Virus record (IMG/VR): IMGVR_UViG_3300036857_000341
Span: 1 to 40,207 of that record
Strand: one strand, 5' to 3'
Length of the DNA stretch: 40,207 nt
From: a virus
The position numbers were made by a program, and so were the translations under genes. Within the stretch, counting starts at the first letter, position 1; each line of letters begins with the position of its first letter. The notes under the pieces were generated by a model that was not told the DNA's origin, did no database searches, and saw nothing but the letters and a program-made list of their open reading frames with translations. Shown here in pieces: positions 1,435 through 40,207 of the stretch.

Positions 1435-3925
1435 GATCACGGCTGAATCCAAGGACAAAACCAAATTCGATATTGTGGAGCGTAAGATTAAGCGCTCCGC
1501 TGACGTGATCAAAACAACCGGTGAGAAGGCTGGCAAGGACCTGGCCGACAGCCTGGAAAAGGGTGCCAAGAAAGCCGCCGATGCCGTGGAGGACGCCGGC
1601 ACCAAGGCCGGTAAGGGCTTGGCTGACGGGGTGAAGAAAGGCAGCGATGACGCGGCGGGGGAGGCCCAGCAGGGCGGCAGCAAGGTTGGTGCAGGGTTCC
1701 TGGCGAACATCAAGGAATTCACCAAGCACGTAAAGGATGAGTTCAAACGAGTTGGCGAGAACGCCAAGGGGATGGCTTCGGAGATAGCGGCCAAGGCCAA
1801 GTCCGGAGGTGGAAAGCTCAAGTCCGCCGGTATGGCGATGGGCAAGGTGTTGGCCGCCGGGGTGCTGCTCGCGGTTGGAACGGTAGGCGCCGGCCTGATC
1901 AACGCTATGGGTTTTGAGGCTGCCAACGACGAGCTGGCCGGGCAGCTGTCGCTGTCAGTGGAAGGTGCCAAGAAAGCGGGGGAGGCTGCATCCAATGTTT
2001 ACAAGCAGAACTGGGGTGAGTCGATCGGGGATGTCAACGATGCCATCAAGTCCATCGGACAGAATCTGGTCAGTGTCAACCAGGTAAGCAAGTCCGAACT
2101 GGAGTCGATGACTACCCAGGCACTGACTCTTCGCGACGCGTTTGGTGTCGAGGTGGTGGATTCCACTCGCGCGGTCGGCCAGATGATCAAAACCGGTATG
2201 GCCAAAAATGCCAAGGAAGGCTTCGACCTGATCACCGCTGGTGAGCAGATGGGTCTTGACAAAGCCGGTGATTTGATCGACACGTTCAACGAATATGGGA
2301 CCCAATTTCGTAAACTGGGGATTGACGGGCCGTACGCCTTGTCTCTGATCAACGCCGCGATTCAAGCCGGCGCACGAGATTCGGATATCGCGGCTGATGC
2401 CATCAAGGAATTCTCCATCCGGGCTGTGGACGGATCCAAGCTTACGGCGCAAGGATTCAAAGCGGCCGGGTTGGATGCCGATAAGATGAGCGCGGCTATC
2501 AGTAAGGGCGGTCCGACAGCCCAAGCTGCGTTCCGACAGACGTTGCAAGCTGTGATGTCCATCAAGGATCCGATCAAACAAAACGCTGCCGGCGTAGCGT
2601 TGTTCGGAACCCAGTGGGAGGACATGGGACCCAAGGTCATGGGTGCCATGTCCAAGGCGGACACTGCTTTGGAAGAGGTGGACGGTGCCACTAAAAAGCT
2701 TGGTGACACCATGGGGAACAATCTGACCACCAAGATCGAGAGCGCCAAGCGTGCGGGGGAGGCCTGGGCCAACAGCAAGCTGCTGCCTGTGGTGGAGCAG
2801 ATTTCCGACCGCTTTACCGATGACTTCCTGCCGGCGCTCCAGACCATTGGGTCCTTCATGCGCGACACGCTCGGGCCGGTGGTCAAGGAATTCGCGGAGA
2901 AGTGGCTGTCCGCGGTCAAGCGGAACCTGGACGACATCAAAGCGGCGTTTGAGGACAACCGGCCCCAGCTGGAGTTGTTCGGTGAGGCACTGAAGAAAAT
3001 CGCCCCCGTCATCGGCACCGTGCTGGTGGTTGGTGTGGAAGTCCTGGGCGCGTCTATCGAAGCGTTGATCCGCACCATCGGGTTCTGTGTGGACGCCTTC
3101 CTGTTGTTGAAAGAGGGCATTGGCAAGGCGGTGGCCGCGGCCATGCCGGTCATCGGCAAGTTGGTGACGGGGTTCATCGGCGGCATCGGGATGATGATCA
3201 ACGCCCTGTTGCCCTACGCCAAGTCGATGGACAAGGTGTTCCACACCAACACCGCGCAGTGGGTGGAGTCCCAGCGTAACGCCATGCTCCAGATGGCCCA
3301 GGACGCCAGCGACGCTTTCGACCAGATAGCCACCGACGCGCAGGAGATGGCCGACGCCGCGTCGCGCGAGCGCGTCTTGATCAAGCTCAAGGGTGACAAG
3401 CAAGACATCCAATCCAAGATCGACGATGTCAAGCGACGGTTGAAAAACCCCAACCTGACCAATCCCCAGAAGTCCAAGCTACGGGCCGATCTGTCCCGGC
3501 TGCGAGCCGACCTTATCCAGGCCCAGGCTGCCATCAACCGGCTCAAGGGCAAGACAGTCACGTTGCGCACCAACCGGGAGATCTACACCTACCGGTACGA
3601 CTCCACCAAGTCCAAGCGTGGTCGGCAGTACGAGGAACACGGTGGCATCTCCACCGCGGCCACTGGTGGTCCACGCGGCCGGGAGACCTTGACCGGTGAG
3701 GCCGGTATGGAGCTGCTGGATCTACCACCGGGAACGATGGTGCACAGCAACCCGGACACCGAACGGATCCTCGGTGAGCGGGCTCGGCAAGGACAGGGAG
3801 ACATCTTCGTGACCGTCATGGTGGGGACCGAGCGGTTGGGCCAGCTACTGATTCGGCCGTTGCGGAACGAGGTCAGAGCCCTGGGCGGTAACGTCCAAGC
3901 GGTCCTGGGAGGTGGCCGGGCATGA
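1415..3925 (+). CDS. Tape measure protein
   Basis: An 836-residue protein that sets tail length and occupies the tube lumen. I chose the ATG at 1415, with a GGGAGG site at 1398-1403; an upstream GTG at 1403 would sit on top of that site. The N-terminal 130 residues are Lys/Ala/Gly-rich and helical, followed by a hydrophobic segment (VLAAGVLLAVGTVGAGLI) and a PhageMin_Tail-like region with AGVALFGTQWEDMG near residue 400. A second hydrophobic stretch lies around residues 530-600 (IGTVLVVGVEVLGA to FIGGIGMMINALLP), then a coiled-coil-like RRLKNPNLTNPQKSKLR region. Its 3' end overlaps the fibre gene by ATGA. At about 1.5 angstrom per residue it predicts a tail near 125 nm. Confidence 0.95.
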   Translation: MAMNTIEITAESKDKTKFDIVERKIKRSADVIKTTGEKAGKDLADSLEKGAKKAADAVEDAGTKAGKGLADGVKKGSDDAAGEAQQGGSKVGAGFLANIKEFTKHVKDEFKRVGENAKGMASEIAAKAKSGGGKLKSAGMAMGKVLAAGVLLAVGTVGAGLINAMGFEAANDELAGQLSLSVEGAKKAGEAASNVYKQNWGESIGDVNDAIKSIGQNLVSVNQVSKSELESMTTQALTLRDAFGVEVVDSTRAVGQMIKTGMAKNAKEGFDLITAGEQMGLDKAGDLIDTFNEYGTQFRKLGIDGPYALSLINAAIQAGARDSDIAADAIKEFSIRAVDGSKLTAQGFKAAGLDADKMSAAISKGGPTAQAAFRQTLQAVMSIKDPIKQNAAGVALFGTQWEDMGPKVMGAMSKADTALEEVDGATKKLGDTMGNNLTTKIESAKRAGEAWANSKLLPVVEQISDRFTDDFLPALQTIGSFMRDTLGPVVKEFAEKWLSAVKRNLDDIKAAFEDNRPQLELFGEALKKIAPVIGTVLVVGVEVLGASIEALIRTIGFCVDAFLLLKEGIGKAVAAAMPVIGKLVTGFIGGIGMMINALLPYAKSMDKVFHTNTAQWVESQRNAMLQMAQDASDAFDQIATDAQEMADAASRERVLIKLKGDKQDIQSKIDDVKRRLKNPNLTNPQKSKLRADLSRLRADLIQAQAAINRLKGKTVTLRTNREIYTYRYDSTKSKRGRQYEEHGGISTAATGGPRGRETLTGEAGMELLDLPPGTMVHSNPDTERILGERARQGQGDIFVTVMVGTERLGQLLIRPLRNEVRALGGNVQAVLGGGRA

Positions 3926-6900
3926 GCTTCCCCCAGACTCCGCAATCTCTGGTTGCTGAGCTCTTGATTGACGGCGTTTGGACGGACATCACAGATGAGC
4001 CGGTGCTCGAGCGCGACTCCATCGTCATCAACCGGGGTACTCCCGACGGAGCGAACGAAACGCCACCATCGCGATGCACACTTACCGTCAACAACCGCAA
4101 CGGGAAGTTCAGCCCGCGCAACCCCGTCAGCCCGTACTACAAAAAGATTGGCCGCAACACCCCCTTGCGAGTGCGGCTGCCTGACGTCGCTCTGGACCCT
4201 TACATCAGGACCTGGAAATCCAACGCCGGTTACACAACCCCGGATTCGGCTGCGCTGTCGATCACCACGGTGCTTGATCTTCGGATTGAGATCGAGCCTG
4301 ACAGCTGGACAAACAATGCCTTCTCCCTGGCAGCCAAGTATCTCACTACGGGAGATCAGCGTAGCTGGGCTTGGTGGGTGGACGAAAACCGCAAACTCAA
4401 GTTCCGGTCCAACGGAACCGGCGCGGTCGGTGGCAACGTGGACTGGATCTCCAGCGCGGTTATCCCGTTTACCACTGGCCGGGGAGCACTACGCACCACG
4501 TTCGAGAACAGCGACGGTTCCGGAAACCGGCGCGTCACGTTCTACACCGCTGCAAGCCTGGCCGGTCCGTGGACCCAGCTCGGCAGCGCCTTCGTACTGG
4601 CCGGCACAACGGCACTGTTCGACTCCACCGCTCAGGTAGAGGTCTGCCGCGTAGACAACATCACCGTCCCCGGGCCGGCTGGGCACAACATCGACCTGGT
4701 GATGCCTGGGCGTACCTACGGTTTCCAGATGTATTCAGGCCTCGGTACCAGCCTGGTGGCATACCTGAACCCGGACTTGGGTGAGGGGGTTGATCCGATC
4801 ACCGACGCACAAGGCAACGTCTGGACACCCCAGTTCGGAGCCTGGGTCGTCAACCCCAGCATTCGTTTCGTCGGGGAAGTTTCGTCCTGGCCTCAGGAAT
4901 GGGACACCTCCGGTGAGGACCGTTACGTCCAGATAGAAGCCAGCGGGGTTCTGCGCAGGCTCCAGCAAGGCAACCCCTTGTTGACGTCCCCCATGTACCG
5001 GGGGATCACCGCGGTGGCTTCCAACGTGGTCGCCTACTGGCCTTTGGAAGATGAGCCGGGCGCGCTCCAGCTCGCGTCCGGTATCGGCGGCCCACCTTTG
5101 ACCTGCTCCCAACCACCCGACGCGGGAAGCTACAGCGAGTTCAAAGCTTCCAAGCCTGTAGCCCAGATGCCCAGCTCTGAACCGGGAACGTGGCGTGCCG
5201 GAGTCCCGGCGTACACCAGCCCATCCGGAAGCCACATGATCCGGTTCATGGTGCACATCCCGGCAGGGACGCTGAGCGGAACCACGCTGTTGCGGGTGCT
5301 GGTGGTGTCCAGCCAGGTCGGTTACTTTGAGCTCTCCTACATCAGCACCAGCAATGGACAGATCCGGTTCCGGGCTTTCGACACCAGCGGTACGCAAATT
5401 GTCTCCTCCGACAGCGCGACTCCTGGTGGGATCAACGACAAGAACGAATACATGAGCCTGGATTTGGAGGACACCGGGTCGGCCCTTCACTGGAACGTCA
5501 TCCAGATGGACCTTGATCAGCCCATCGGTGCTGGTGGAACATTCAATGACGGCACATTGGCAGCCACCGACATCACGCGGGTACGGGCGATAGAGGTCTA
5601 TCCCAACGCGACTTCGGCCCCAGCGGAAAGCGTGGCGTTCGGTCACTTGTCCGTCCAGCATGGGATTACCAGCTTCTTTGAGCTGGACGACCAGGCCAAG
5701 GGTTGGATCGGTGAGCGTGCGGGAGACCGGTTCAGCCGGCTGACCGCGGAGAATGGTGTACCCGCGGTGGTGTTCGGGGATCCGGACGAGACTCAGCCGA
5801 TGGGCGCGCAACCGGTCCAGACGCTGGCCACACTGTTGCGTGAGTGCGCTACCGCGGACATCGGCCAGTTGCTCGAGCCAAGAGACTTCCTGGGCTTGAT
5901 GCTTCGGACCCGGCTGAGCCTGACCAACCAGATCCCGGCGCTCGAGCTCGACTATGACGCGTCCCAGCTGACCCGATTCAAGCCGATCGACGATGATCAG
6001 TTGACCCGTAACGACATGACCGTTAACCGGCCGGGAGGCTCGAGCGCGCGCGTCATCGCTACGACCGGACCGCTCAGCGTCAACCCTCCACCGGACGGGG
6101 CAGGGCAGTACGACGACCAGATCGAAGCCAACGTCGAAACCGATGCCGAGCTGACCGACCATGCCGGCTGGCGAGTGCACCTGGGCACGATCGACGAAAG
6201 CCGCTTCCCCGACCTGGCGCTGACCCTCGCCAGGTCGCAGCTGGCGAGCCTGCGCGTGGGCATCGCGGCGTTGGACGTCGGGGACCGGATCACCGTGGAC
6301 AATCCACCGGCCGACCGGATGCCACCCGACCAGGTGAGCCAGCTGGCCTGGGGCTTCACCGAAACACTGTCCGGATATGTCTGGGATGTGGTGATCAACG
6401 GCATTCCGGAGTCCGGCTGGCAGGCCGCTGTGTGGGGCTCTGACGCCGCCGCGGCCACCGACGACCCAGCACCGGCTCGGTACGCGCCGGACGCCTCCAA
6501 CCTGGCTGTAGCAGCCGACAGCACCCAGACAGCGCTGTTGGTCAACACCAGCCTGGGACCGTTGTGGAGCACCCAGAGCGCGGATTATCCCCAGGACATC
6601 TGGGTGGACGGGGAGCGCTGCGAGCTGAGCGCGGTCGGTGTCACACCGTCGCTGGTGGCCGTTGGTACCGGCGCGTCGGGGACGGGCAACACCGGGATCA
6701 CGGCCGGGCTGCCGGCCGGGACCGCCGTGGACGATGTGGTCGCGATCTTCGCTTCCATCCGCAACAGCGGCACCGGCGTGCCGGTGCGGCCGGATGCCTG
6801 GTATGAGGCCCTGAACTTCAGCAACGGCAACGCCCGGCTTTACCTCAGGCGCTACGACGGGATCTGGACCATGCCCGCGGTCGCCTTCACCGGGGGCGCC

Positions 6901-7839
6901 GGCACCGATGACACCCTGGCCCAGAGCGCGAGCTTCCGCGGCGTGGACTGGCCGGCCATCAGCGCACTGTCCCAGCTGAACGGAAGCGCGCAGAACATAG
7001 CCACACCCGCGCTTCCGGTACCGGAGTGGGCTGGGATCATCCTGGGGCTCGGCTGGAAGCAGGACGACTGGAGCGCGTCCGGAGCGGCCGCGCTGGGCGG
7101 CGAGTGGACCGAGATCAACGAACGGACGTCCACCGCGGGCAACGATGCCGGGCAGGTCTGGGACTACCAGGTAGCTCCGATGTGCGCCACCGGCGTGGAG
7201 GCCTCAAGTTTCACCATCACCGGGGGTGCCGCGGCCATCTCGCGGGGCGCGGTGATCTGCCTGCCGGTGCGTACGCCGGCCGCCAACAGCAACCCGTATT
7301 TCGAGACCGACGCGTCCGGCTGGACCAACACCGCGGGGGTGGCCGCGCCGTCGCGCTCCACCGCACAGAAGCACAGCGGCACGGCCTCAGCCCTGCTGGC
7401 TACCGTCGGCACCCCGGCCAACTGGAGCATTACCAGCCAGTCCATCGTGCCGAGCATTCAGGGGCAGCTGTGGAGCGCGACCGCCTGGGTCCGGGTCAAC
7501 ACCGGCGCCAGCATCGACCTGCGGATAGTCCTGGCCTGGGCGGACGAAACTCAGACCGCGCTGAGTATCACGGCCGGCACTACGACCACGGTACCCACCA
7601 GCATCTGGACCCCGCTCACCGTGACGGGGTTCAGCCCGGCCGGTACCGGGTTCGCGCAGATCCGGCTACAGGCACTGAACAACCCGGTCGGTGGCAGCCA
7701 GGTCCACGCGGACGAGATCGAGCTGACCTCCCCGCGTATTCAGGGGTTCACCGTGGCCCGGTCGCAGAACGGCGTGGTGAAGAGCCACACCGCGGGGACC
7801 GATGTCCGAGTCAATCCTGAGTCGTTCTGGTCGCTGTAA
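3922..7839 (+). CDS. Large minor tail protein / tail fibre with lectin-like domains
   Basis: A 1,305-residue virion protein, start coupled to the tape measure by ATGA. The N-terminal 110 residues (VAELLIDGVWTDIT, CTLTVNNRNGKFSP) match the baseplate-proximal module of streptomycete siphophage minor tail proteins. A region from about residue 365 starts VVAYWPLEDEPGA and has the look of a LamG/concanavalin-type beta-sandwich. A repetitive beta region follows at about 915-1118, and from residue 1123 a CBM-like module begins NPYFETDASGW and continues with 'WSATAWVRV', as in CBM4/9-type carbohydrate-binding domains. It is expected at the tail tip, binding a cell-surface polysaccharide. The domain names are family-level inference; receptor and any enzymatic activity are unknown. 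Confidence 0.88.
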   Translation: MSFPQTPQSLVAELLIDGVWTDITDEPVLERDSIVINRGTPDGANETPPSRCTLTVNNRNGKFSPRNPVSPYYKKIGRNTPLRVRLPDVALDPYIRTWKSNAGYTTPDSAALSITTVLDLRIEIEPDSWTNNAFSLAAKYLTTGDQRSWAWWVDENRKLKFRSNGTGAVGGNVDWISSAVIPFTTGRGALRTTFENSDGSGNRRVTFYTAASLAGPWTQLGSAFVLAGTTALFDSTAQVEVCRVDNITVPGPAGHNIDLVMPGRTYGFQMYSGLGTSLVAYLNPDLGEGVDPITDAQGNVWTPQFGAWVVNPSIRFVGEVSSWPQEWDTSGEDRYVQIEASGVLRRLQQGNPLLTSPMYRGITAVASNVVAYWPLEDEPGALQLASGIGGPPLTCSQPPDAGSYSEFKASKPVAQMPSSEPGTWRAGVPAYTSPSGSHMIRFMVHIPAGTLSGTTLLRVLVVSSQVGYFELSYISTSNGQIRFRAFDTSGTQIVSSDSATPGGINDKNEYMSLDLEDTGSALHWNVIQMDLDQPIGAGGTFNDGTLAATDITRVRAIEVYPNATSAPAESVAFGHLSVQHGITSFFELDDQAKGWIGERAGDRFSRLTAENGVPAVVFGDPDETQPMGAQPVQTLATLLRECATADIGQLLEPRDFLGLMLRTRLSLTNQIPALELDYDASQLTRFKPIDDDQLTRNDMTVNRPGGSSARVIATTGPLSVNPPPDGAGQYDDQIEANVETDAELTDHAGWRVHLGTIDESRFPDLALTLARSQLASLRVGIAALDVGDRITVDNPPADRMPPDQVSQLAWGFTETLSGYVWDVVINGIPESGWQAAVWGSDAAAATDDPAPARYAPDASNLAVAADSTQTALLVNTSLGPLWSTQSADYPQDIWVDGERCELSAVGVTPSLVAVGTGASGTGNTGITAGLPAGTAVDDVVAIFASIRNSGTGVPVRPDAWYEALNFSNGNARLYLRRYDGIWTMPAVAFTGGAGTDDTLAQSASFRGVDWPAISALSQLNGSAQNIATPALPVPEWAGIILGLGWKQDDWSASGAAALGGEWTEINERTSTAGNDAGQVWDYQVAPMCATGVEASSFTITGGAAAISRGAVICLPVRTPAANSNPYFETDASGWTNTAGVAAPSRSTAQKHSGTASALLATVGTPANWSITSQSIVPSIQGQLWSATAWVRVNTGASIDLRIVLAWADETQTALSITAGTTTTVPTSIWTPLTVTGFSPAGTGFAQIRLQALNNPVGGSQVHADEIELTSPRIQGFTVARSQNGVVKSHTAGTDVRVNPESFWSL

Positions 7840-8804: not shown

Positions 8805-8844
8805 CAAAGAGCTTTCGGGGGTGGCACCTGGGAGGATAGAGGCT

Positions 8845-9174
8845 ATGGACCTGGACACCATGCGTATCGTCATCACCGCGCTGATGTGGCTCACCATCCC
8901 CGGCGCCGTCGCCAGTCTCATCCTGCTGTTCGTTGGTACGAAAGAGCGCGATGAGTTTTTCTGGCACGTGGTCACCTATGCCGGGTCGATAGCCCTGGTG
9001 GTCTCGGTCTGGGCGCTGGGGCGTCTGCTGGTGGATCATCTGGGTTCGATCCCGGGCTGGTATCCGATCCTGTTGGTGGTGTCATTTGTGACCGTGCCGG
9101 TCGCGGTCTACTGGCGGCTGTCCCTGCAGACGCGTAGCCTGTTGCGTAAACCACACACCGACGTATCGGAGTAA
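8845..9174 (+). CDS. Three-span membrane protein upstream of endolysin (holin candidate)
   Basis: A 109-residue protein. I use the ATG at 8845, preceded by GGGAGGATAGAGG, rather than the in-frame upstream start at 8821. Three hydrophobic segments are visible: LTIPGAVASLILLFVG, YAGSIALVVSVWALG and YPILLVVSFVTVPVAVYW. They are separated by short charged loops and followed by a basic and acidic tail. It ends three bases before the endolysin start. Size, span number and position fit a holin or an accessory lysis membrane protein; a second holin-like gene follows the endolysin at 10392. Confidence 0.8.
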   Translation: MDLDTMRIVITALMWLTIPGAVASLILLFVGTKERDEFFWHVVTYAGSIALVVSVWALGRLLVDHLGSIPGWYPILLVVSFVTVPVAVYWRLSLQTRSLLRKPHTDVSE

Positions 9175-10391: not shown

Positions 10392-10784
10392 ATGTCCGAC
10401 TGGTTCAAGATCTACGGCAAGTCCCTGGCGTTCGTACTGGGCGCGTTCGTCGTGGCGCTTCGGCAGGTGACCGACGACGGCCACGTGACCGGCGCTGAGT
10501 GGTTCGTCGTGATCGGTGCGGCCAACAGCGCGGTGGCCGTCTACTTCGTGGCCAACCTGACCGGCACGTCCGGCAAGTACGGCAAGATCGTCACCCATAC
10601 GGTGACGCTGACAATCCCCGCGCTAGTGGCGTTCATCCCGGGCGGGATCACGGGGAACGAGCTGATCGACCTCATCATCATCGCCGGCAGCGCGGCCGGT
10701 GTCCTGGGCTTCCCCAGTGTCCAGCATCCGGTCAACCCCGTGGTGCTCCAGCCCGCTGTTGCGCAAGGACAACACGCGGGCTAA
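10392..10784 (+). CDS. Holin-like membrane protein
   Basis: A 130-residue membrane protein with a GAGAAAGG ribosome-binding site. It has an N-terminal amphipathic/hydrophobic segment (LAFVLGAFVVALRQVTDD), a second segment (GAEWFVVIGAANSAVAVYFVAN), and then LTIPALVAFIPGG and IDLIIIAGSAAGVLG. The 'ALRQVTDDGHVTGAEW' loop is characteristic of a holin family found next to endolysins in Streptomyces phages. It is the last gene of the rightward late operon and is followed by a strong hairpin terminator. Expected role: timed membrane permeabilisation that lets the GH25 lysin reach the wall. Confidence 0.85.
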   Translation: MSDWFKIYGKSLAFVLGAFVVALRQVTDDGHVTGAEWFVVIGAANSAVAVYFVANLTGTSGKYGKIVTHTVTLTIPALVAFIPGGITGNELIDLIIIAGSAAGVLGFPSVQHPVNPVVLQPAVAQGQHAG

Positions 10785-10821
10785 GCTGGCTTCATCAGAT
10801 CCGCATTGCTGGTGACAACAC

Positions 10822-10866
10822 AGAACACCCCCGGTCAGCGCATAATGATGCGAGCGGGGGTGTTCT
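10822..10866. terminator. Bidirectional terminator between convergent genes
   Basis: A perfect 11-bp stem (AGAACACCCCC at 10822-10832 with GGGGGTGTTCT at 10856-10866). Its loop contains a smaller hairpin, CGCAT-AATG-ATGCG. It lies between the end of the late operon (10784) and the end of the convergent minus-strand methyltransferase (10873), so it can serve both directions. Confidence 0.88.
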
Positions 10867-10872
10867 GCTGTC

Positions 10873-11643: not shown

Positions 11644-11790
11644 TCAGTCAAGGCTTGCGATGAGCTCGTAGCTGTCGGCCCGTGCCTCGCGCTGGTAGGA
11701 GGAGAAGACGTTGGCCACATCCTCGTAAGTCCATCCCCAGCCCCAGGCGTCCAGTTCGACTACCAGCCGGCCGTCCTTGTAAAGCCTCAT
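11644..11790 (-). CDS. 48-residue acidic mini-protein
   Basis: Start at 11790 (MRLYKDGRLVVELDAWGWGW), chosen because GGGAGG lies six bases upstream; the frame is open further but without a better site. The short protein has a beta-hairpin-like start, a WGWGW aromatic cluster and an acidic helix ending SYELIASLD. No family was recognised. It forms a single-gene transcription unit with its own promoter (11824-11856) and terminator (11604-11631), the arrangement expected of an early, individually controlled phage mini-protein. Confidence 0.72.
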   Translation of the reverse strand: MRLYKDGRLVVELDAWGWGWTYEDVANVFSSYQREARADSYELIASLD

Positions 11791-11823
11791 CCTGGTTCCT
11801 CCCAGGTCTTCGTCGTTGAGACC

Positions 11824-11856
11824 AGTATGGCACAGGTGTTGAGAATTTGCAACACC
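11824..11856 (-). promoter_or_regulatory. Operator-promoter, site B (minus strand)
   Basis: Reading the minus strand: -35 TTGCAA (11852-11847), a 17-bp spacer, and -10 CATACT (11829-11824) preceded by an extended -10 TGC. The palindrome GGTGTTG-N8-CAACACC (11835-11856, 7-bp arms) covers the -35 and most of the spacer. The predicted transcript starts near 11817 and reaches the ATG at 11790. Confidence 0.72.
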
Positions 11857-11860
11857 CCCG

Positions 11861-11912
11861 AGCAAAGAAAAATGAGAGCCCTGCCCGGGCGGGGGAAGTG
11901 GGCAGGGCTCTC
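11861..11912 (-). terminator. Strong intrinsic terminator of the structured RNA
   Basis: A perfect 13-bp GC-rich stem, GAGAGCCCTGCCC (11874-11886) with GGGCAGGGCTCTC (11900-11912), 13-base loop. On the minus strand it is followed by ATTTTTCTTTG, a proper U-tract. This is the most classical rho-independent terminator in the window, and it lies downstream of no protein gene. Confidence 0.9.
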
Positions 11913-12085
11913 GTCTGGGAGGGGCCGGTGGGCCTACGTGCTGTTGGGCTTAGGATTTCCCACCGGTTAGGTGTTCGGATCGAGATGCCCCGCGCGAATC
12001 GGTTCCAACGATTCCAGCTTGCTACCGGCTTGCGCCTAAAGCTACTGGGGGCCTCTAGTCGGCTACTCGCTTCTCGATCCGAACA
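11868..12085 (-). ncRNA. Predicted structured non-coding RNA (about 218 nt)
   Basis: A stand-alone minus-strand transcription unit with a promoter (site C), no credible protein gene and a strong terminator. The predicted start, seven bases after the -10, falls at 12085, which is the first base of a 14-bp helix (12072-12085 with 11972-11985). This helix closes a multibranch domain containing a hairpin with GAATCG/CGATTC arms and a GGC-GCAA-GCC hairpin with a GNRA tetraloop. A second domain (11925-11966) has an 8-bp stem CCGGTGGG/CCCACCGG enclosing CCTA/TAGG. The third domain is the terminator. I recognise no known RNA family. It could be an antisense or regulatory RNA, or act on host machinery. 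Confidence 0.78.
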
Positions 12086-12091
12086 AGCACT

Positions 12092-12122
12092 AGCTTAGCA
12101 TGACTGTTCAGTTTGTGCAACA
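12092..12122 (-). promoter_or_regulatory. Operator-promoter, site C, driving the structured RNA
   Basis: Minus strand: -35 TTGCAC (12120-12115), a 17-bp spacer, and -10 TAAGCT (12097-12092) with TGC just before it (extended -10). The operator-like TGTTG-N8-GAACA palindrome (12122-12105, one mismatch in the second arm) covers the -35 and spacer, as in sites B, D, E and G. Confidence 0.78.
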
Positions 12123-12125
12123 GGT

Positions 12126-12326
12126 TCAGCCAGGAAATTTCGCCGGCCTGGTGCCGCGGGTGATGTGCCTGGCCTTGGCCTCATGCTCGTCCCAGGCGCC
12201 GTTGCGGTTGGACGTGGAGCGCACCGTGCCGACGATGAACCCGATGATGGAACCGATCACCACGCCGGCCACGACCAGGCAGAGCATGCCGGCCACCAGG
12301 GTTGCGGTGTCGATCTGGTAGCTCAC
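12126..12326 (-). CDS. Single-span membrane mini-protein
   Basis: A 66-residue protein with a GTG start overlapping the preceding stop (GTGA at 12326-12323). One long hydrophobic segment, TLVAGMLCLVVAGVVIGSIIGFIVG, takes up residues 9-33 and carries small-residue GxxxG-like spacing. A polar, charged tail follows (SNRNGAWDEHEAKARH). It is the last gene of the leftward operon beginning at 14390. No family was recognised; it could be a membrane-associated host-takeover or exclusion peptide. Confidence 0.72.
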   Translation of the reverse strand: MSYQIDTATLVAGMLCLVVAGVVIGSIIGFIVGTVRSTSNRNGAWDEHEAKARHITRGTRPAKFPG

Positions 12327-12606: not shown

Positions 12607-13701
12607 CTATCCGATTGGGATGATGTGTGCACCAGAGTACGGCTCGGCATGAACCACGCCGCCGTGCCGGACGGGCTGCCCGGCCGGCGCCGGCAGGTAC
12701 TCGGTGTAGACCTTGACGTTGACGCGCGAGCTCGCGCATGCCGGGTCCATCTGGTAGTCCAGCATCGGGTTGAACCGGTAGTGGTGCAGGGTGCCGTCGA
12801 TCGTGCCGGTGGTGACCTTGGTGGCTACGTTGCAATACGAGCCGTCGGCCCGCACCTGGCGCACGAACAGCGTCAGCCGGGTCTGGAGCGCGGCGGCTCC
12901 CCCGGTGGACTCCACGCTGACCCCCAGCCCTGCCCAGACGTGTGCCTGCGTGGTGCCGGCAGGCAGCTGGACCGTCCGGTAGACGGCATCCACCGCGCGC
13001 GGCCGGGGCGCCAGGCCGAACGGTAGCTCTCCGGCCTGCCGCCATTCCATCCCACCAGAGTAGGAATTGGACGCGATCCTCAGGAAAGTGTTCGCGCCGT
13101 CGATCACGTCCAGGAGGTTGTTCGGATTGGTCACGCACTCGACGGTGCGCTTGCCCGCGCGGATCACGCTGGTGTTGTCGCAGCGCCCAGCCTGGGCTCG
13201 CAGCTCGATCACGTACGTCCCCGACTGTTCCGGGCTGAACAGCCACTCGGTGCCGACCGCGGCCGGCCGGGCATCGCCGCGGTGGTTACGCGTGGCCAGC
13301 GTGCTCCGAGCTCGCTGCGTGGCGCTGGTGGCTCCCAGCGGGTAGGCCTCCACCCTGGCGCCCATCAGGCTACCGGTGGTCGCGGTGCCCTCCCAACGCG
13401 CGCTCCAGCGGTACTGGCGACCGGCCTCGAGCTCGAGCGTGCACGTGCGCAAGGTGTGGAAGATGTAGTCGGTCGGCAGCTGGTGCAGACCGGTGCTCGA
13501 GCTGGCGCAGACCGGCGCCGGCTGGGTGTCGGCCACCTGCTGGGACGCCTGCGTGACGTTGCCCAGATGGGCTGTCGCGGCTGGGCTGGCGATGACGCCG
13601 GTCAGCAGGATCAACAGGCCCAGGTTGGCCTGCTCCTGCCAGCGGGCAAGCCGCTTCAGAATCCGGACCACACGAAGTGCCTTGTGCTGGGGTTGGTTCA
13701 T
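12607..13701 (-). CDS. Exported or membrane-anchored six-cysteine protein
   Basis: A 364-residue protein with GAGAGGAAA upstream of its ATG. A basic N-terminus (residues 1-28) precedes a hydrophobic segment, LGLLILLTGVIASPAATAHLG, so it is probably translocated with a cleaved or retained signal. The mature part is beta-rich and contains six cysteines (in APVCA, RTCT, GRCD, VECV, SYCN and DPAC contexts), an even number consistent with disulfides outside the cell. It is not in the virion operon but among small minus-strand accessory genes. No family was recognised. Surface modification or superinfection exclusion are reasonable hypotheses. Confidence 0.85.
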   Translation of the reverse strand: MNQPQHKALRVVRILKRLARWQEQANLGLLILLTGVIASPAATAHLGNVTQASQQVADTQPAPVCASSSTGLHQLPTDYIFHTLRTCTLELEAGRQYRWSARWEGTATTGSLMGARVEAYPLGATSATQRARSTLATRNHRGDARPAAVGTEWLFSPEQSGTYVIELRAQAGRCDNTSVIRAGKRTVECVTNPNNLLDVIDGANTFLRIASNSYSGGMEWRQAGELPFGLAPRPRAVDAVYRTVQLPAGTTQAHVWAGLGVSVESTGGAAALQTRLTLFVRQVRADGSYCNVATKVTTGTIDGTLHHYRFNPMLDYQMDPACASSRVNVKVYTEYLPAPAGQPVRHGGVVHAEPYSGAHIIPIG

Positions 13702-15261: not shown

Positions 15262-15491
15262 TCGCGCACCACCGTGATGCCGCTCGCGCGCAGAGCCCGG
15301 CCCAGGTCGGCCAGGCCGGGGTAGGCTTCGGTGACCGACGCCATGACCGAGCAGTCCGGGCAGGTGATGGCGCCGGGGCCCATCGGCTTGATGTCGGACA
15401 CGTACTCGCCGCAGATGGTCAGGTGGCTGTCGCTGTGCTGGCCGTGGATCTGGTGGTCGGTCATGGCGTAGGTGGTGTTGATCTTGCTCAT
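15258..15491 (-). CDS. Cys-containing mini-protein, first gene of leftward operon E
   Basis: A 77-residue protein. The ATG at 15491 is favoured because GAGGGG lies nine bases upstream; another ATG at 15500 overlaps that site. The sequence has a His-rich start (HQIHGQHSDSHLTICGEY) and ITCPDCSVMASVTEAYPGL, together offering His and three Cys ligands. It ends with a helix-strand pair (LGRALRASGITVVRE). It is the promoter-proximal gene of a five-gene, fully overlapping operon. No family was recognised. Confidence 0.75.
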   Translation of the reverse strand: MSKINTTYAMTDHQIHGQHSDSHLTICGEYVSDIKPMGPGAITCPDCSVMASVTEAYPGLADLGRALRASGITVVRE

Positions 15492-15645: not shown

Positions 15646-15671
15646 CAACACATCATGCTAGACTGCCGCCA
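15646..15671 (+). promoter_or_regulatory. Extended -10 promoter giving a leaderless regulator mRNA
   Basis: TGC-TAGACT (15656-15664) is an extended -10. Seven bases downstream of it is the A of the ATG at 15671, so the transcript is predicted to start at the initiation codon. No ribosome-binding site is present before the ATG. A half operator, CAACA (15646-15650), stands eight bases upstream of the -10, as in site E. Confidence 0.68.
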
Positions 15672-15982
15672 TGCCTGAATCGATCACGAGACCTCGTGTC
15701 CGCCTGAGCGACCCGGACAAGCTGCGCCGGGAGCTCCGGCGCCGGTATCCGGACGAGCCCGCTACGGAGCGTAGTTACGCCCGGATGATCGGCGTGACCC
15801 CGGCCACCTGGACGCGCGTGGCCGGCTCGGAGATCGGCTGTGGCGGGATGTTCATCGCGGCCGTGCTCGAGGCTCTGCCGGGCAGCCGGTTCGAGCGCTG
15901 GTTTGAGATTCGCACCGAGCCGGCCAACGTCAAGCCGGCCACCAAGACTCAGCCGGGCCGATCCGGGAAGAGGCCCAGCTGA
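15671..15982 (+). CDS. HTH transcriptional regulator (candidate operator-binding protein)
   Basis: A 103-residue, very basic protein. A helix-turn-helix is suggested by ERSYARMIGVTPATWTRVAG (about residues 37-56), followed by a hydrophobic helix, GMFIAAVLEALP, and a disordered Lys/Pro tail. The form (helix, IGV turn, recognition helix, 'FIAAVL--LP') resembles short phage Cro/C-type regulators. It is divergent from the leftward operon E and appears to be translated from a leaderless mRNA, as many phage repressors are. I infer it may bind the TGTTG-N8-CAACA operators, but nothing in the protein proves specificity. Confidence 0.8.
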   Translation: MPESITRPRVRLSDPDKLRRELRRRYPDEPATERSYARMIGVTPATWTRVAGSEIGCGGMFIAAVLEALPGSRFERWFEIRTEPANVKPATKTQPGRSGKRPS

Positions 15983-18029: not shown

Positions 18030-18891
18030 CGGATTCGCACAACCGAGCAACGCCTACCCACCCCAGGGCGGATACCAGCCCGGCCCACAGCAGTTCCAGG
18101 CGCCCCAGGGCTACCCGCAACAGCAGTGGGGCCAGCCCGGCCCACAGCAGTTCCAACCTGCCGCGCCGGTCCAGCAGTACACGCTGGACGACTTCGGCAG
18201 CCAGCCCAGCGGACCCAACGGCCCCTCGCTGACCAAGCTGGTTCAGGGCAACCAGTGGCCGGTCGGCACCGAGTGGCTGTGCGTGATCAAGCGCGACGTG
18301 ACCGACGCCGACGTGAGCCACCAGACCGAGCTCAACACCAACCGGCCGTTGTTCAACAAGGACGGGTCGGCCAAGCTGTCCATCGCGATCCACGTGGAAG
18401 CGATTCAGATCGTGATGCAGGGCCAGGTCTACCCCAGCCCGAACCACGCTGACGGCAACGGCACGTGGTACATCCAGGGCCGCGCGCGGGACGAGTGGGC
18501 GCGAGCTCGGCAGGAAGCCGGCTGCCCGCCTGGGACGTTCGGCCTGCGCGGTGAGCGCGTACGCGTCAAGCTCGCCGGGCGCCGGCCGATCCCCGGCGTG
18601 CCGCAGCCGGCCAACGACTGGGAGATCCATGTGACACCGGCGAACGGAGTCCAGACCCCGCAACCGGCGACCACCCAGTCGTTGGCGCCACAGCAGGCAC
18701 AGCAACCCGCGGCGGGCCAGGCACTGGCTCCCCAGGTCTCTCCGGTCTGGCAGGCCATGGAGTACGGCGCGGCGTCGGCCCAGCCGGTCGTTCAGCCTGG
18801 TCCGCAGGCAGCCGGACAGCCGGCGCCACCGCCCACCCTGAACGACCGGCAGCAGGCGCTGCTGCAGCAGTTCCAGCAAGGCGGCTCGTAG
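17842..18891 (+). CDS. Probable ssDNA-binding / replication accessory protein with Pro-Gln-Gly tails
   Basis: A 349-residue protein, start with GGAAGGA upstream. Residues 1-115 are low-complexity Pro/Gln/Gly/Tyr (repeats like QGYPQQ and GPQQFQ). A central folded region, about residues 120-265, begins LTKLVQGNQWPVGTEWLCVI and contains LSIAIHVEAIQIVMQGQ and WYIQGRARDEWARARQ, beta-rich and suggestive of an OB-type fold. It is followed by a second Pro/Gln-rich tail ending QALLQQFQQGGS. Position between an exonuclease and a helicase, and intrinsically disordered tails, fit an SSB-like protein, but no signature proves it. Confidence 0.78.
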   Translation: MTYPQQPLPPGYPQGYPQQEMPGQIPGSAPGYQQPTPSAPPVAGYPANAGTVPYGTNPSQAGNGFAQPSNAYPPQGGYQPGPQQFQAPQGYPQQQWGQPGPQQFQPAAPVQQYTLDDFGSQPSGPNGPSLTKLVQGNQWPVGTEWLCVIKRDVTDADVSHQTELNTNRPLFNKDGSAKLSIAIHVEAIQIVMQGQVYPSPNHADGNGTWYIQGRARDEWARARQEAGCPPGTFGLRGERVRVKLAGRRPIPGVPQPANDWEIHVTPANGVQTPQPATTQSLAPQQAQQPAAGQALAPQVSPVWQAMEYGAASAQPVVQPGPQAAGQPAPPPTLNDRQQALLQQFQQGGS

Positions 18892-19630: not shown

Positions 19631-21492
19631 TGTCGGTGATCACGGGAATCCTGCCCCCACCGGTTACCGCGCTGTCCGCCGTTGTTCCACGTGAAACACT
19701 GCCGTCGGTCTATGTCGAGATGAACGCCAACGCCTCCAAGCTGCTCCTGCTGGCCTCGAGCCCCAGCCATGACGCGATGGCCCACCTGGCCGGCCTGATC
19801 CAGAGCTGCACCCCGCTGTTCGAAAGCTCCGACCCCCCGGGCGGATACGTCTGCCCGCTGTCCTGGTCGGCCGTAGTACAGCTGTCGGCCACGCTGGGCA
19901 CGGCGTGGAACCCCAGCCCGCGCGTGCTGGACTGGATCAAGGCTGAGATCTTGCGTCGCACGAATCAAGCCTCTGACCTTGACTCCCCCCTCCCGCGGCT
20001 CGCGGTGCTCGAGCACCTACCGGAAGGTCTGCGGCCGTACAGCTGGCAAGTGCTGGGTGCCGAGCTGATCGCCACGATGGGCAACCCGATCATCGTGGAC
20101 GACCCCGGCACCGGTAAAACGATCACCGCGATCCTGGGCCTGGTGGAGCGCGCGTCGCGCACACTCGCGCCTCTCGCGCCGGTGCTGGTGGTCTGCCCGG
20201 CCAGCGTGGTGGACGCCTGGGTGGAGGCCTGGCAGACCTGGGCGCCCCACGTCCGCGTGGTGGCCTGGCGCGGCGACAAGCGCCGGCGGTTGCGCCTGAT
20301 CGGCCGCGCGGACGTATACGTGTGCAGCTGGGACATGGCGCGCACCGACGCCGGGCCATCGACGGAAGGCCGGCACCGGCCACTGATCATGCTCGACCCC
20401 GGCGCCATCGTGATCGACGAGGCGCACTACGCCAAGAATCCCCAGGCCGCCCGGACCAAGGCCGTGCGTCGGCTTGCGCGGCTCGCGCACTCCCGGACCG
20501 GCACCGTCATCCCGATGACCGGCACCCCGATCGGCAGCCACGCCGGCGACTTCTGGCCCATCCTCGACCTGGTCGAGCCCGGCGCCTGGCCGAGCAAAGA
20601 ACGCTGGGTGAACCGGTACTGCCTGACCGTCCCAGGCGATTACGAAACCAAGGTGTTGGGCGTCGCCCCGGCCGCCGAGCCGGAGTTTCGCAAGACCCTG
20701 CTGGGCCAGATGCGCCGCGTGGCCAAGGCCGATGCCCTGTCCGAGCTGCCGCCCAAGGTGCACTCGGTCCGCACGGTCGAGCTGCCGGCGGCCGCGCGAG
20801 CGGCGTACGACTCCATGGAGTCCGACATGGTCGCCGAGCTCGCGGACGGCGGCGAGGTATCGATCATGTGGAAGCTGGCGGCGCTAGGTGCGCTGTGCCA
20901 GATGGCCAGCGCCACCGCGGCGGACGTTGAGGTCACCTACGGCCCGGACCGCGACGAACTCGGCGAGTTCAAGCGACACCAGCACGTCATCCTGTCAGCC
21001 CCCAGCTGGAAGGTGGACGCTCTGCTGGAGGTGATGGCCGAACGCCCCGGACAACCAGTCGTCTGCTTCGCCCCGTCCAAACAGCTGGTCGAGCTCGCCG
21101 GCGCGGCAGCGGCCAAAGCCGGCTACCGAGTGGGCTACATCGTCGGCGGCCAAAGCTCGGCCACGCGCACCGGTGCCATTCGCGCGTTTCAAGCCGGCGA
21201 GCTCGATCTGATTTGTGTCACCACCAAGGCCGGCGGCGTCGGCATCACACTCACCCGCTCGAGCTGCGCGGTATTCCTGCAACGCCCCTGGTCCATGGTG
21301 GACGCCGTCCAGGCAGAGGACCGGCTCCACCGCATCGGAGCCGAGGGCCACGAGTCCATCGAGATCATCGACATCGTGGCGAAAGACACTATTGACACCC
21401 GTATCCGCTCTGTCCTGAAAGACAAAGCCAGCAACCTGGCCGATCTGGTGCAAGACCCCAGAGTGGTCAACGACCTGTTCGGAGGAAAGTAA
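19630..21492 (+). CDS. SNF2-family DNA helicase/translocase
   Basis: A 620-residue ATPase with a GTG start overlapping the small upstream ORF. Motif I is VDDPGTGKT (about residue 157), motif II DEAH (about 263), motif III PMTGTP (about 296), motif V TKAGGVGITLT (about 531) and motif VI QAEDRLHRIG (about 563). The order and spacing are those of SF2/SNF2 proteins. It begins with a 130-residue N-terminal region lacking a known motif. Such enzymes move along duplex DNA and take part in replication fork remodelling or recombination. It lies upstream of a RuvC-like resolvase, a methyltransferase and the polymerase fusion. A parS-like site lies inside its first codons. Confidence 0.93.
   Translation: MSVITGILPPPVTALSAVVPRETLPSVYVEMNANASKLLLLASSPSHDAMAHLAGLIQSCTPLFESSDPPGGYVCPLSWSAVVQLSATLGTAWNPSPRVLDWIKAEILRRTNQASDLDSPLPRLAVLEHLPEGLRPYSWQVLGAELIATMGNPIIVDDPGTGKTITAILGLVERASRTLAPLAPVLVVCPASVVDAWVEAWQTWAPHVRVVAWRGDKRRRLRLIGRADVYVCSWDMARTDAGPSTEGRHRPLIMLDPGAIVIDEAHYAKNPQAARTKAVRRLARLAHSRTGTVIPMTGTPIGSHAGDFWPILDLVEPGAWPSKERWVNRYCLTVPGDYETKVLGVAPAAEPEFRKTLLGQMRRVAKADALSELPPKVHSVRTVELPAAARAAYDSMESDMVAELADGGEVSIMWKLAALGALCQMASATAADVEVTYGPDRDELGEFKRHQHVILSAPSWKVDALLEVMAERPGQPVVCFAPSKQLVELAGAAAAKAGYRVGYIVGGQSSATRTGAIRAFQAGELDLICVTTKAGGVGITLTRSSCAVFLQRPWSMVDAVQAEDRLHRIGAEGHESIEIIDIVAKDTIDTRIRSVLKDKASNLADLVQDPRVVNDLFGGK
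19683..19698. promoter_or_regulatory. parS-like ParB-binding site
   Basis: TGTTCCACGTGAAACA agrees at every position with the chromosomal parS consensus TGTTNCACGTGAAACA and contains the CACGTG core. It sits in the coding sequence of the helicase (Val-Pro-Arg-Glu-Thr codons). I recognise no ParB or ParA in this genome, so any binding protein would be the host's. Confidence 0.7.
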
Positions 21493-22660: not shown

Positions 22661-25600
22661 GTGACTGCTCAAACCCAGCTCGAACCGGTGTTCGCGCTGT
22701 ACGCGCAGGCTTATCTTGACGCCGGCTGGCCGTGCGTGCTGCCGGTGCCTGCGGAAACCAAGTCCCCGCCACCGGAGGGCTTCACCGGGGAGGCCGGGAT
22801 CGACACCGACGCGAACACGCTGGCGGTGTGGGGCCAGACCCTGCCCTACCACAGCATCGCGTTGCGCATGCCCGCGACCGCTGAGTGGGCGGTGATCGGC
22901 ATCGACGTGGACGACTACCCCAAGGGCGAAACGGTGAAGGTCGGTGGGCAAACGCTTGCCGCGCTGGAGGCCCAGCTCGGGCCGCTGCCACCGACGTGGA
23001 TTTCCAGCGCGCGGCCGGCGCCGTCCGGTATCCGCTTCTACCGCGTGCCGGCCGGCCGCTACCGCACCAAGCTGACGGCCGGCTCGACCGGCGACATCGA
23101 GGTCATCCAGCGCCACCACCGCTACGCCGTGGTCGCCCCTTCGGTCAACATGGACGCGGGTGGAACGCTGTACGCATGGTGGCATCCACCGACAGGTCCC
23201 ACGGTGTTTCCAGGCATGCTCCCCAGCCCTACCGATCTGCCCTGGCTGCCGGACACCTGGGTCGCGCACTTGCGTGAAGGGGCGAGCGCTGCAGGCCCGG
23301 CCGCGGCAGCTCGCGACGACGGCGCCCGGCTGCTGAGCCTGGCGCCCCAGGGCGAACCATGCGTGGCTATGGCCGACGCGATCACCAAGGCGGTCGGTCT
23401 GATGGCGCCCACCAACGCCGGCACGCGCCACGACATCACGATCGAGCGCGTCCACCACCTGGTCATGCTGGCCGCGCAAGGGCACCCCGGGCTCGCGAGC
23501 GCACGTGACCGCCTGGCCGTGCTGTGGGAGGACCTGACCCGCGGCGAGCAGCGCGCGGATGAGTTCGAGCGGATGTGGACGACGAGCTCGCGCAAGGCCG
23601 TCACCGCGATCGGCGGCACCACGCCCTGGCCGCACGCCGTCGGGCCGGACGGCCGGTGTGACTCCGACGCCGCCCGTCTGCTGGCCCAGGGCCTGACCTG
23701 GTCAGCACCCCAGCACCCCGGTCAGCCCCTGGCGGGGGTTGATCCACTGGCCAATGGTCACTCGAATCATGTTAGTGATCAATCGGACATAACGGATAAC
23801 GAGGTTAACCAGGCATATTTCGCCACGTACGGACCACCGGCTACCAGCCTGGTCGGCGTGCTCGGCTCGGCTCCGTTCGATCCACCGGCAGCCTTCGACC
23901 AGGACATCGCTGCCGCCGCGCTCGAGCGCACGTGGCCGGGCCTGCGCTACGCCCCTGACGCCGACATGTGGTTCCAGCGCCAAGCCGACGGCCGGTGGCG
24001 GATCGGCAAGCGCGGCCACAAGGCTCAGCTGGCCCTGCTGGCCAACCTGGCGCCGGCCGGGGACGCGAGCGCGGACAAGGGCACCCCGGAACAGGCACGG
24101 GCAGCCCGGCGCGCACGGCTGAAATCCAGCGCGGGCAGCTCCGCCGTGGCGTCGAAGATGCTGGAGCTGGCCAGCCTGTCCGACCACCCCAGCGCGATCG
24201 ACGCGGGCAAGCTGGACGCCGAACCGGAGATCTTGTGGGCCGGTGGGTTGCCGTGGGACCTGGCAGCCAGCGCGGCCGGGCCGGTGCTGGCGAACATCGG
24301 CTGGGCCGAACCACACACCCATGACGCCGGACACGCCCCAGCAGCCGGACCGACACCGGCTTGGGATGCCTTCTGTGCCGCGGTGTGGCCGGATCCCGAA
24401 CTACGCGCCTGGGCACTCCGAGTCCTGTCGATCGGGTTGACCGGCTATCCGGACGCCGCGCTGATCATCCTGACCGGAGAGACCGGCCGCGGCAAGAGCT
24501 CGGTCGCACAGTTGGTCTGTGACGTGCTCGGCAGCTACGGAAGCTCGGTCCATCGCTCATTGCTGTTCGGCGACAACAGCTCGGAGAAGCACGTTCACGA
24601 ACTCAGGGGCCTGCGGTTGGCCTACATCGACGAATCCCCACACGGCACCCGCGGCAGCACCGAGCACCTGAAGCAGATCACCGGGGGTGGGGTGCTGATG
24701 GCCAACAACAAGTACGAGGCGACCTATCCGTTCGCTCCGACTCATACCCTGGTGCTGACCTCGAACCATGAGCCGGACCTGTCCGACCCCGCGCTGGTGC
24801 GCCGGGTCCGGCCCATCCCCTGCATCGGGGATCCCGGCGCGGTGGCGGCCGCCCGGCGCGCGCTGGCTGCCGGTAACGGCCGGGTCTGGGAAGCCGAGCG
24901 GCCCGGCGTACTGGCCGCGATGATGACCCAGGCCGCGGCTTGGCTGGCCGACCGGGACAGCAGCGAGGTGGCCGCGCTGCCCGCGCTCGCCAGCTACGTA
25001 GCCGACCTGGCCGAAGAGGATGACCCGATCCACGGCTGGCTCACCGAATGCACGGATCCCGACGACTACGGAAGCCGCGCGAGCGACCTCTACGCCAACT
25101 TCCGCACCTGGTGGCAGGCGTCCGGGCTGAACGTACGCGAGATGCCGACGGTCACCCGCTGGGGGCGCCAGCTGAACAAGCGTGGCTACCCCAAGATCAA
25201 GCGCACCAACGCCAACTACAGAGGGTTGGTGCTCAAGGGTCTGAGGTTGGCGGGTACGCCCTCGAACGCGGGGGCGCCGGTCAGCCGGCCGACGCTGGAG
25301 GCTTACGCCGGGCAAGTCGCCACGCCGACTGACCAGGACGCTCCACAACCCACCATGTTGCCTGAGGCAACTGACCATGACTGCCCAACCACCCAGCCAC
25401 TGTCCAGCCCTATTTCCCCAGGTCAAATACCCCTTCTGGATACTATGGATACTATGGATAGTAAGGAAGGGGAAAAGAGTAGAGAAGAGGTAGGAGAAGA
25501 AAAGGGGACAAATGGGGGCATGGATAGGGGGGAAGAAAATAGTGGAAAGGATAGTGACCGCCAACAGCCCATACCCTCCGAACAATCCATTCCAGGGGCG

Positions 25601-39322: not shown

Positions 39323-40083
39323 TGTCGAAGCAATCCGGGCTGGGGGACAATCTGTACGTCGGTGGGTACGACGTATCCGGGGACGTCATCTCGATTGGCC
39401 GGGTCGGGGGAAGTCAAGCCACGCTTGACACCACCGGGATCAAGCGTTCCGCCTACGAACGGATCGGTGGCGTACGCGACGGTGGTGTGGAAGCGGTGGC
39501 CTGGTGGAACCCCACCAACTCACCGGCCAGCCCGGATGATGCCGAGCACCAGGTTTTCCGTGGCCTGCCGACCGCGGACGTCATCCTGACCTACTGCCGG
39601 GGAACGACCCAGGGCAGTCCGGCCGGCAGCATCGTGGCCAAGCAGCTCAACTACGACGGCAGCCGGTCACAGGATGGCTCGTACACTTTCGCTGTGGCTG
39701 CGCAGGCCAACGGCTACGGGCTCGACTGGGGCAACCTGCTGACCGCGGGCAAGCGGACTGACACCACCGCCACCAGCCCGGCTACCGGGCTCGATCTGAC
39801 CACGGCGTCCACCGCGTTCGGCTGGCAGGCATTCCTCCACGTGTTTGCCTTCACCGGCACCAGCGTGACCGCGACCATCCAGGACAGCGCCGACAACTCC
39901 AGCTTTGCCAACCTGACCGGCGCGGCGTTCACCGCTGTTACGGCAGCGCCGGCCAGTCAGCGGCTGGAAGGTGGGCGTACGGCGACCGTACGCCGGTACA
40001 TCCGGGTCATCACCAGCGGTACGTTTTCCAACGCGGTGTTCGCCGTTGGGTTTACCCGCAACGATGTGGCTGTGAGGTTCTGA
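39322..40083 (+). CDS. Major tail (tube) protein
   Basis: A 253-residue protein. The ATG at 39322 (MSKQSGLGDNLYVGGYDVSG) is four bases from AGGAGG and forms TGATG with the preceding stop; an ATG at 39319 is also in frame. The tube fold is suggested by DVISIGRVGGSQATLDTTG, SAYERIGGVRDGGVEAVAWW and VAKQLNYDGSRSQDGSYTFA. From about residue 150 an additional beta-rich domain appears (AFLHVFAFTGTSVTATIQDS, RRYIRVITSGTFSNAVFAVG), probably decorating the tail surface. It is longer than, and related to, the second tube-like protein at 439. Confidence 0.88.
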   Translation: MSKQSGLGDNLYVGGYDVSGDVISIGRVGGSQATLDTTGIKRSAYERIGGVRDGGVEAVAWWNPTNSPASPDDAEHQVFRGLPTADVILTYCRGTTQGSPAGSIVAKQLNYDGSRSQDGSYTFAVAAQANGYGLDWGNLLTAGKRTDTTATSPATGLDLTTASTAFGWQAFLHVFAFTGTSVTATIQDSADNSSFANLTGAAFTAVTAAPASQRLEGGRTATVRRYIRVITSGTFSNAVFAVGFTRNDVAVRF

Positions 40084-40207
40084 TGACCCAGCCCTACCGG
40101 ATCATGCCCATCGGCCACCCCGCTGACTACCAGACGTTCCGGATGACCCGGCGTTCTGACACGTCGATTGTCCAAGCCTGTAAGGAAGCAGGATGTGAAC
40201 AGTGGGC
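40081..40207. repeat. Second copy of the 127-bp terminal overlap
   Basis: Identical to 1-127. When the circle is closed, one copy should be removed. Confidence 0.93.
40083..40207 (+). CDS. Truncated duplicate of the first gene (window edge)
   Basis: The first 41 codons of the 143-residue conserved hypothetical at 3-434, cut off by the window end. It is the same gene seen again through the circular overlap, not a second locus. Confidence 0.9.
   Translation, partial: MTQPYRIMPIGHPADYQTFRMTRRSDTSIVQACKEAGCEQW

Follow-up and report, generated by a model that had tools for sequence, protein, structure and literature searches.

The minus strand of the window (the whole stretch of 40,207 nucleotides of viral DNA analysed here) harbors, at positions 12085–11868, an element that is likely to represent a free-standing small RNA of the phage, equipped with its own promoter and its own terminator; as judged from the sequence, the probability of this reading is roughly three in four. 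The 218-nt span, read leftward, corresponds to an RNA of ~215 nt. The element is a real sequence feature and likely a discrete RNA, its function being a testable conjecture, and it is treated below as a candidate phage small RNA without an assigned family. The initial annotation had described it as a stand-alone, non-coding, structured transcription unit, a description which the promoter, the predicted fold, and the terminator support well at the level of sequence. The signals, the predicted fold, the predicted accessibility, and the complementarity derive from the sequence; from them, we infer transcription, pairing in vivo, and its timing.

The predicted RNA consists of a multibranch domain, a second hairpin, a C-rich linker, and an intrinsic terminator (Table 1). 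The 14-bp helix closing the multibranch domain was previously proposed to begin at the very start of the transcript, and this was borne out: the projected start (12085, or 12084 in the case of a purine start) is situated 7 nt past the TAAGCT hexamer and coincides with the first base of the helix. The second hairpin of 8 plus 4 bp (11966–11925) and the ensuing terminator with a U-tract (13 bp, U5) were recovered as well. The terminator possesses a C-rich loop of 13 nt, and its stem is followed by A-UUUUU; it was missed by the automated terminator scan, whose limit of 8 is exceeded by this loop. The domains are predicted to fold independently, in the order of their synthesis and without competing pairing. 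According to the opening energies, the only freely open segments are CCCCUCCCAG, which separates hairpin 2 from the terminator, and the terminator loop, the remainder being costlier to open; both segments resemble anti-Shine-Dalgarno sequences, and the linker portion CCUCCCAG represents one. The earlier statement that this strand lacks a credible protein frame holds: it contains only a 21-aa ORF overlapping the promoter, and all six frames score negative.

Table 1. Features of the predicted RNA, its promoter, the adjacent genes, and the candidate target sites (window coordinates)
Feature	Positions	Strand	Basis or remark
Weak operator-like palindrome spanning the −35 element of the RNA promoter	12103..12124	.	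9/14 positions of GGTGTTG-N8-CAACACC
−35 element TTGCAC	12115..12120	-	sequence, in-phase promoter list
−10 element TAAGCT, 17-nt spacer, TGC before it (extended −10)	12092..12097	-	sequence
Domain 1: 114-nt multibranch, closed by perfect 14-bp helix 12072-12085 / 11972-11985	11972..12085	-	fold, z −3.8
Hairpin 2, 8 bp + 4 bp	11925..11966	-	fold, z −3.5
C-rich single-stranded linker CCCCUCCCAGAC	11913..11924	-	opening energy 0.02-0.29 kcal/mol
Intrinsic terminator, 13-bp perfect stem 11900-11912 / 11874-11886	11868..11912	-	z −6.9
Gene next upstream, part of the leftward operon and encoding a membrane-type protein of 66 aa	12126..12326	-	RNA promoter just past its stop
Downstream 48-aa gene, candidate target	11644..11790	-	has a strong operator-promoter of its own (operator at 11835-11856)
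48-aa gene: Shine-Dalgarno CUGGGAGG	11798..11805	-	complementary to linker CCUCCCAG
Gene 3922-7839 (1305 aa, minor-tail-like): Shine-Dalgarno CUGGGAGG	3905..3912	+	
Gene 8845-9174 (109 aa, immediately preceding the endolysin gene): Shine-Dalgarno CUGGGAGG	8828..8835	+	

The fold of the whole RNA (218 nt) has a predicted energy of −100.7 kcal/mol (z = −5.8), and none of 200 shuffled sequences folded as well. Perfect inverted repeats of 13–14 bp within 150 nt did not occur in six shuffles of the genome. In related phage DNA (239 sequences, 2.05 Mb, both strands), the combination of a perfect hairpin of at least 12 bp and a downstream terminator of at least 9 bp with T5 was encountered twice, i.e., in the element itself and as one plain tandem terminator in the record L037. 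Fold energy was rejected as proof of an RNA: among windows of equal GC content (n = 1332), the minus strand ranks 17th by this measure and the plus strand, which folds better, 3rd. Hence, neither the existence of an RNA nor its strand can be deduced from the fold energy alone, and the direction of the element rests on the promoter and the U-tract.

The promoter is in place (Table 1), though far from the sigma-70 consensus (6 of 12 matches, counted by eye), and the automated promoter scan did not call it. The operator which the initial annotation attached to it is less well supported. Strong palindromes conforming to GGTGTTG-N8-CAACACC occur five times in the window (11584, 11835, 14440, 15604, and 18961), and weaker members of the same family lie at 10755, 17523, 17693, 29937, and 9138; the one at 10755 accompanies a TTGCGC-17-TAAGCT site within the end of the gene 10392–10784. 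Operators 11835, 14440, and 18961 span the −35 elements of TTGNNN-17 promoters (TAAGGT and TAAGCT being among the −10 elements of this family), and a TTGACT-18-TACGCT promoter is compatible with operator 15604. At the RNA promoter, the site is in phase with the −35 element, as at 11835, 14440, and 18961, but it ranks only 13th in the genome by the position weight matrix, and in-phase sites as good occur at 8 of 975 TTG triplets (0.8%; the five strong sites left out, the RNA site counted in). An operator at this promoter is thus possible but weak. The operator family as a whole probably constitutes a phage regulon, and a helix-turn-helix protein (15671–15982, plus strand, phrog_3642) encoded next to one of the operators is a probable regulator or repressor; the RNA might be subject to the control by the phage repressor as well.

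The weak consensus match of the promoter brings in another explanation, in which the leftward operon 14390–12126 has the element as its structured 3′ terminus; the helices would only protect the end of the mRNA and insulate the 48-aa gene, with no function in trans. No terminator is seen between the gene 12126–12326 and the element, so read-through would carry the RNA as the 3′ UTR of that gene; transcripts initiated at the 14440 promoter could then end at the 11874–11912 terminator, since no other terminator is seen between the gene 12126 and the next promoter. In such a read-through transcript, the domains are predicted to form still, with minor changes to hairpin 2. On the other hand, a terminator alone would suffice for this purpose, a 114-nt multibranch domain together with a hairpin being unusual, and a promoter sharing the geometry of the other promoters of this phage has its projected start precisely on the opening base of the first helix. 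Overall, an operon end of this kind seems rather improbable.

If the element is a free-standing RNA, its accessible segments suggest a mode of action. Leftward transcription from the promoter of the element to its terminator would yield the ~215-nt RNA, the stable body of which consists of the long 5′ helix plus hairpin 2, while CCCCUCCCAG and the C-rich terminator loop would pair with the G-rich Shine-Dalgarno sequences of selected phage mRNAs. Ribosome binding would thereby be blocked, and the expression of tail, lysis, or neighbouring genes delayed. The best candidate targets are genes 3922, 863, and 8845 and the adjacent 48-aa gene; host mRNAs are perhaps targeted, too. Five copies of CTGGGAGG, the linker complement, are present in the genome: one at the RNA locus, one within a gene, and three that coincide exactly with Shine-Dalgarno sequences (Table 1). 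For gene 3922, the predicted pairing extends into the 3′ arm of hairpin 2 (CCGGCC), reaching 14 bp with one bulge. When the linker was compared with the start regions of genes, 4 of 41 passed the 1% threshold set by coding-sequence controls. Matches to Shine-Dalgarno sequences arise with any C-rich segment, though: letter-permuted linkers did as well in 24 of 200 trials and permuted terminator loops in 147 of 200. The 16S tail, too, has three of the four best targets among its own best. Target prediction, not being significant against the permuted segments, was therefore discarded as proof of pairing. With permuted C-rich segments performing almost equally, the support for trans-pairing is suggestive only, and pairing of the C-rich segments with Shine-Dalgarno sequences is proposed tentatively, at odds clearly below even. 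Of the antisense role envisaged initially, the cis variant found no support, the opposite strand being devoid of a credible gene, and the trans variant directed at Shine-Dalgarno sequences is plausible.

Such a mode of action would resemble that of the mycobacterial RNAs B11 and 6C, for which it is established; these are structured RNAs whose two open C-rich stretches can bind to ribosome-binding sites (PMC10470900), as is proposed for the element; for B11 of Mycobacterium abscessus, either C-rich loop suffices for the repression of a target (PMC10470900). However, B11/6C RNAs are host-encoded, conserved, and have two C-rich loops, whereas in the element one of the stretches is a linker, the body is a large multibranch, and there is no Rfam match. 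Phage small RNAs acting on tail genes or lysis have been reported, e.g., STnc6030 of BTP1 and PAK_P4as15 (PMC12197685), the proposed effects being on a tailspike gene or on lysis timing; STnc6030 is antisense to the tailspike gene, and these RNAs show no sequence relation to the one described here.

The statement that the RNA belongs to no recognised family was confirmed in that no Rfam family reached its gathering score. Among the sub-threshold matches were ar14 (RF02344; 19.2 bits versus 58.8) and ar7 (RF02342; 23.9 versus 60), and 6C was not among the weak matches. These alphaproteobacterial sRNAs possess, as does the element, an intrinsic terminator with a C-rich loop, and the weak matches reflect this shared type of terminator; the scores being below gathering, the element is not a member of either family. 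The 6S-like role proposed initially is not borne out: although the domain ends are joined by a long helix as in 6S/Ms1 RNA, 6S is a rod with a central open bubble, whereas the domain here is a multibranch and gave no Rfam match.

Bases 1–127 of the window are identical to bases 40081–40207, and this terminal direct repeat indicates a closed, complete circular genome of 40,080 bp. The genome encodes a tape measure protein, endolysin, terminase, portal, capsid, and an SNF2 helicase; no integrase was detected among the proteins scanned, and no tRNA was found. The structural genes are 25–69% identical to their counterparts in Streptomyces phage Dagobah and the polymerase is ~40% identical to that of Actinoplanes phage phiAsp2, which points to an actinobacterium as the most likely host. 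A single 1626-aa protein (22661–27541, plus strand) combines a primase-polymerase N-terminus with a family A DNA polymerase C-terminus; among the relatives, its longest matched length was found in L037. The 364-aa protein encoded in the neighbourhood of the RNA (12607–13701, minus strand) has no family and no relative in the records searched.

With the RNA as a query, blastn returned no match at E ≤ 1 in the phage records (n = 50,697) and no homologue in phages and plasmids (INPHARED, PLSDB), and the exact patterns of the closing helix and of an inner 18-mer had no match in IMG/VR. A single-sequence covariance model of domain 1 revealed no homologue in 97 other related phage records; a match with an E of 0.73 in Streptomyces phage Dagobah was rejected, as it falls in annotated genes. 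Weak blastn matches to RNA query positions 191–218 in six related records looked at first like conservation and were likewise dismissed: of the records fetched, three have one common unrelated, apparently protein-coding sequence and the others are unlike the RNA. The relatives were gathered via scans with DNA polymerase (46 loci), portal (19), capsid (80), and terminase (80), and the scans of the genome collection with portal and polymerase yielded no relative. Those gathered are distant, with roughly 30–60% protein identity in the matched gene; at such distances, the loss of a recognisable RNA is not evidence against the RNA.

Among phage RNAs, the nearest counterparts are those of cluster A mycobacteriophages (L5, D29, StarStuff), in which a very abundant and stable ncRNA arises from the early P-left promoter in a host-toxic region, its function being given as unknown (PMC5712189); in addition, three strongly expressed intergenic ncRNAs, nc_1 to nc_3, are documented in Rhodococcus phage WC1 (PMC10986025). 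These transcripts share with the element their actinophage origin and non-coding nature and, judging by placement, the element may work like them. By this analogy, it could be a non-coding RNA made early and abundantly and directed at the host, through binding or titration of a host protein or through toxicity, with the C-rich segments being incidental. The placement in an operator-rich leftward region, the precedents named above, and the large folded domain devoid of a known motif fit this explanation. At the same time, no sequence relation to these RNAs was found among the phage records. The P-left RNAs of cluster A are ~500 nt long, processed into several species, studded with stoperators, and lack a canonical terminator, whereas the element is shorter and sharply terminated. 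They are driven by a repressor-controlled early leftward promoter; the operator here is in phase with the −35 element and weak. A host-directed RNA of this kind appears unlikely.

The sequential arrangement of promoter, structured domain, terminator, and gene on one strand is also what would be expected of a cis-acting leader (attenuator, riboswitch, or put-like antitermination RNA) serving the 48-aa and methylase genes. This is very unlikely: when the 3′ arm of the terminator is blocked, its 5′ arm remains essentially unpaired and domain 1 unchanged, so that no antiterminator pairing emerges, and the 48-aa gene has a strong operator-promoter of its own past the terminator.

Of similarly low probability is a function at the DNA level, as an origin of replication or a site of recombination or packaging, with the inverted repeats misread as RNA helices. 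Inverted repeats are strand-symmetric, the plus strand folds even better, and nine other perfect repeats of 12–14 bp are present in the genome, several of them intragenic, the one at 21089–21206 being as long as that of the element. Yet only one strand has the promoter and the U-tract on either side of the repeats, and no iterons were found. Genome-wide, eleven perfect inverted repeats with arms of at least 12 within 150 nt were counted versus 0–1 in shuffles, among them those at 21089–21206, 18783–18850, 18610–18686, and 15338–15469; where the lysis and methylase genes converge, a perfect hairpin of 13 bp (10821–10867) is apparently a bidirectional terminator. An RNA antitoxin resembling type I or III and paired with the 48-aa gene, as the complementarity of its Shine-Dalgarno sequence to the linker might suggest, is the most improbable explanation: there are no tandem repeats of the sort that would precede a terminator and a ToxN-like gene in a type III system, and the 48-aa protein is acidic and aromatic rather than a membrane peptide and matches no family.

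Overall, a free-standing phage small RNA accounts best for the promoter, the fold, and the terminator taken together. A bolder suggestion, namely that the multibranch domain of 114 nt represents a novel RNA fold with a specific activity (as a protein-binding decoy or a regulator of host machinery), joined within one phage RNA to an anti-Shine-Dalgarno arm and founding a new family of phage regulatory RNA, is a long shot. Actinophage ncRNAs are known from RNA-seq as highly expressed transcripts. Here, the sharp predicted ends, the simple modular fold, and the explicit candidate targets mean that a small set of mutants could test the covering of ribosome-binding sites. If true, the C-rich mode of actinobacterial sRNAs would be exemplified in a phage as well.
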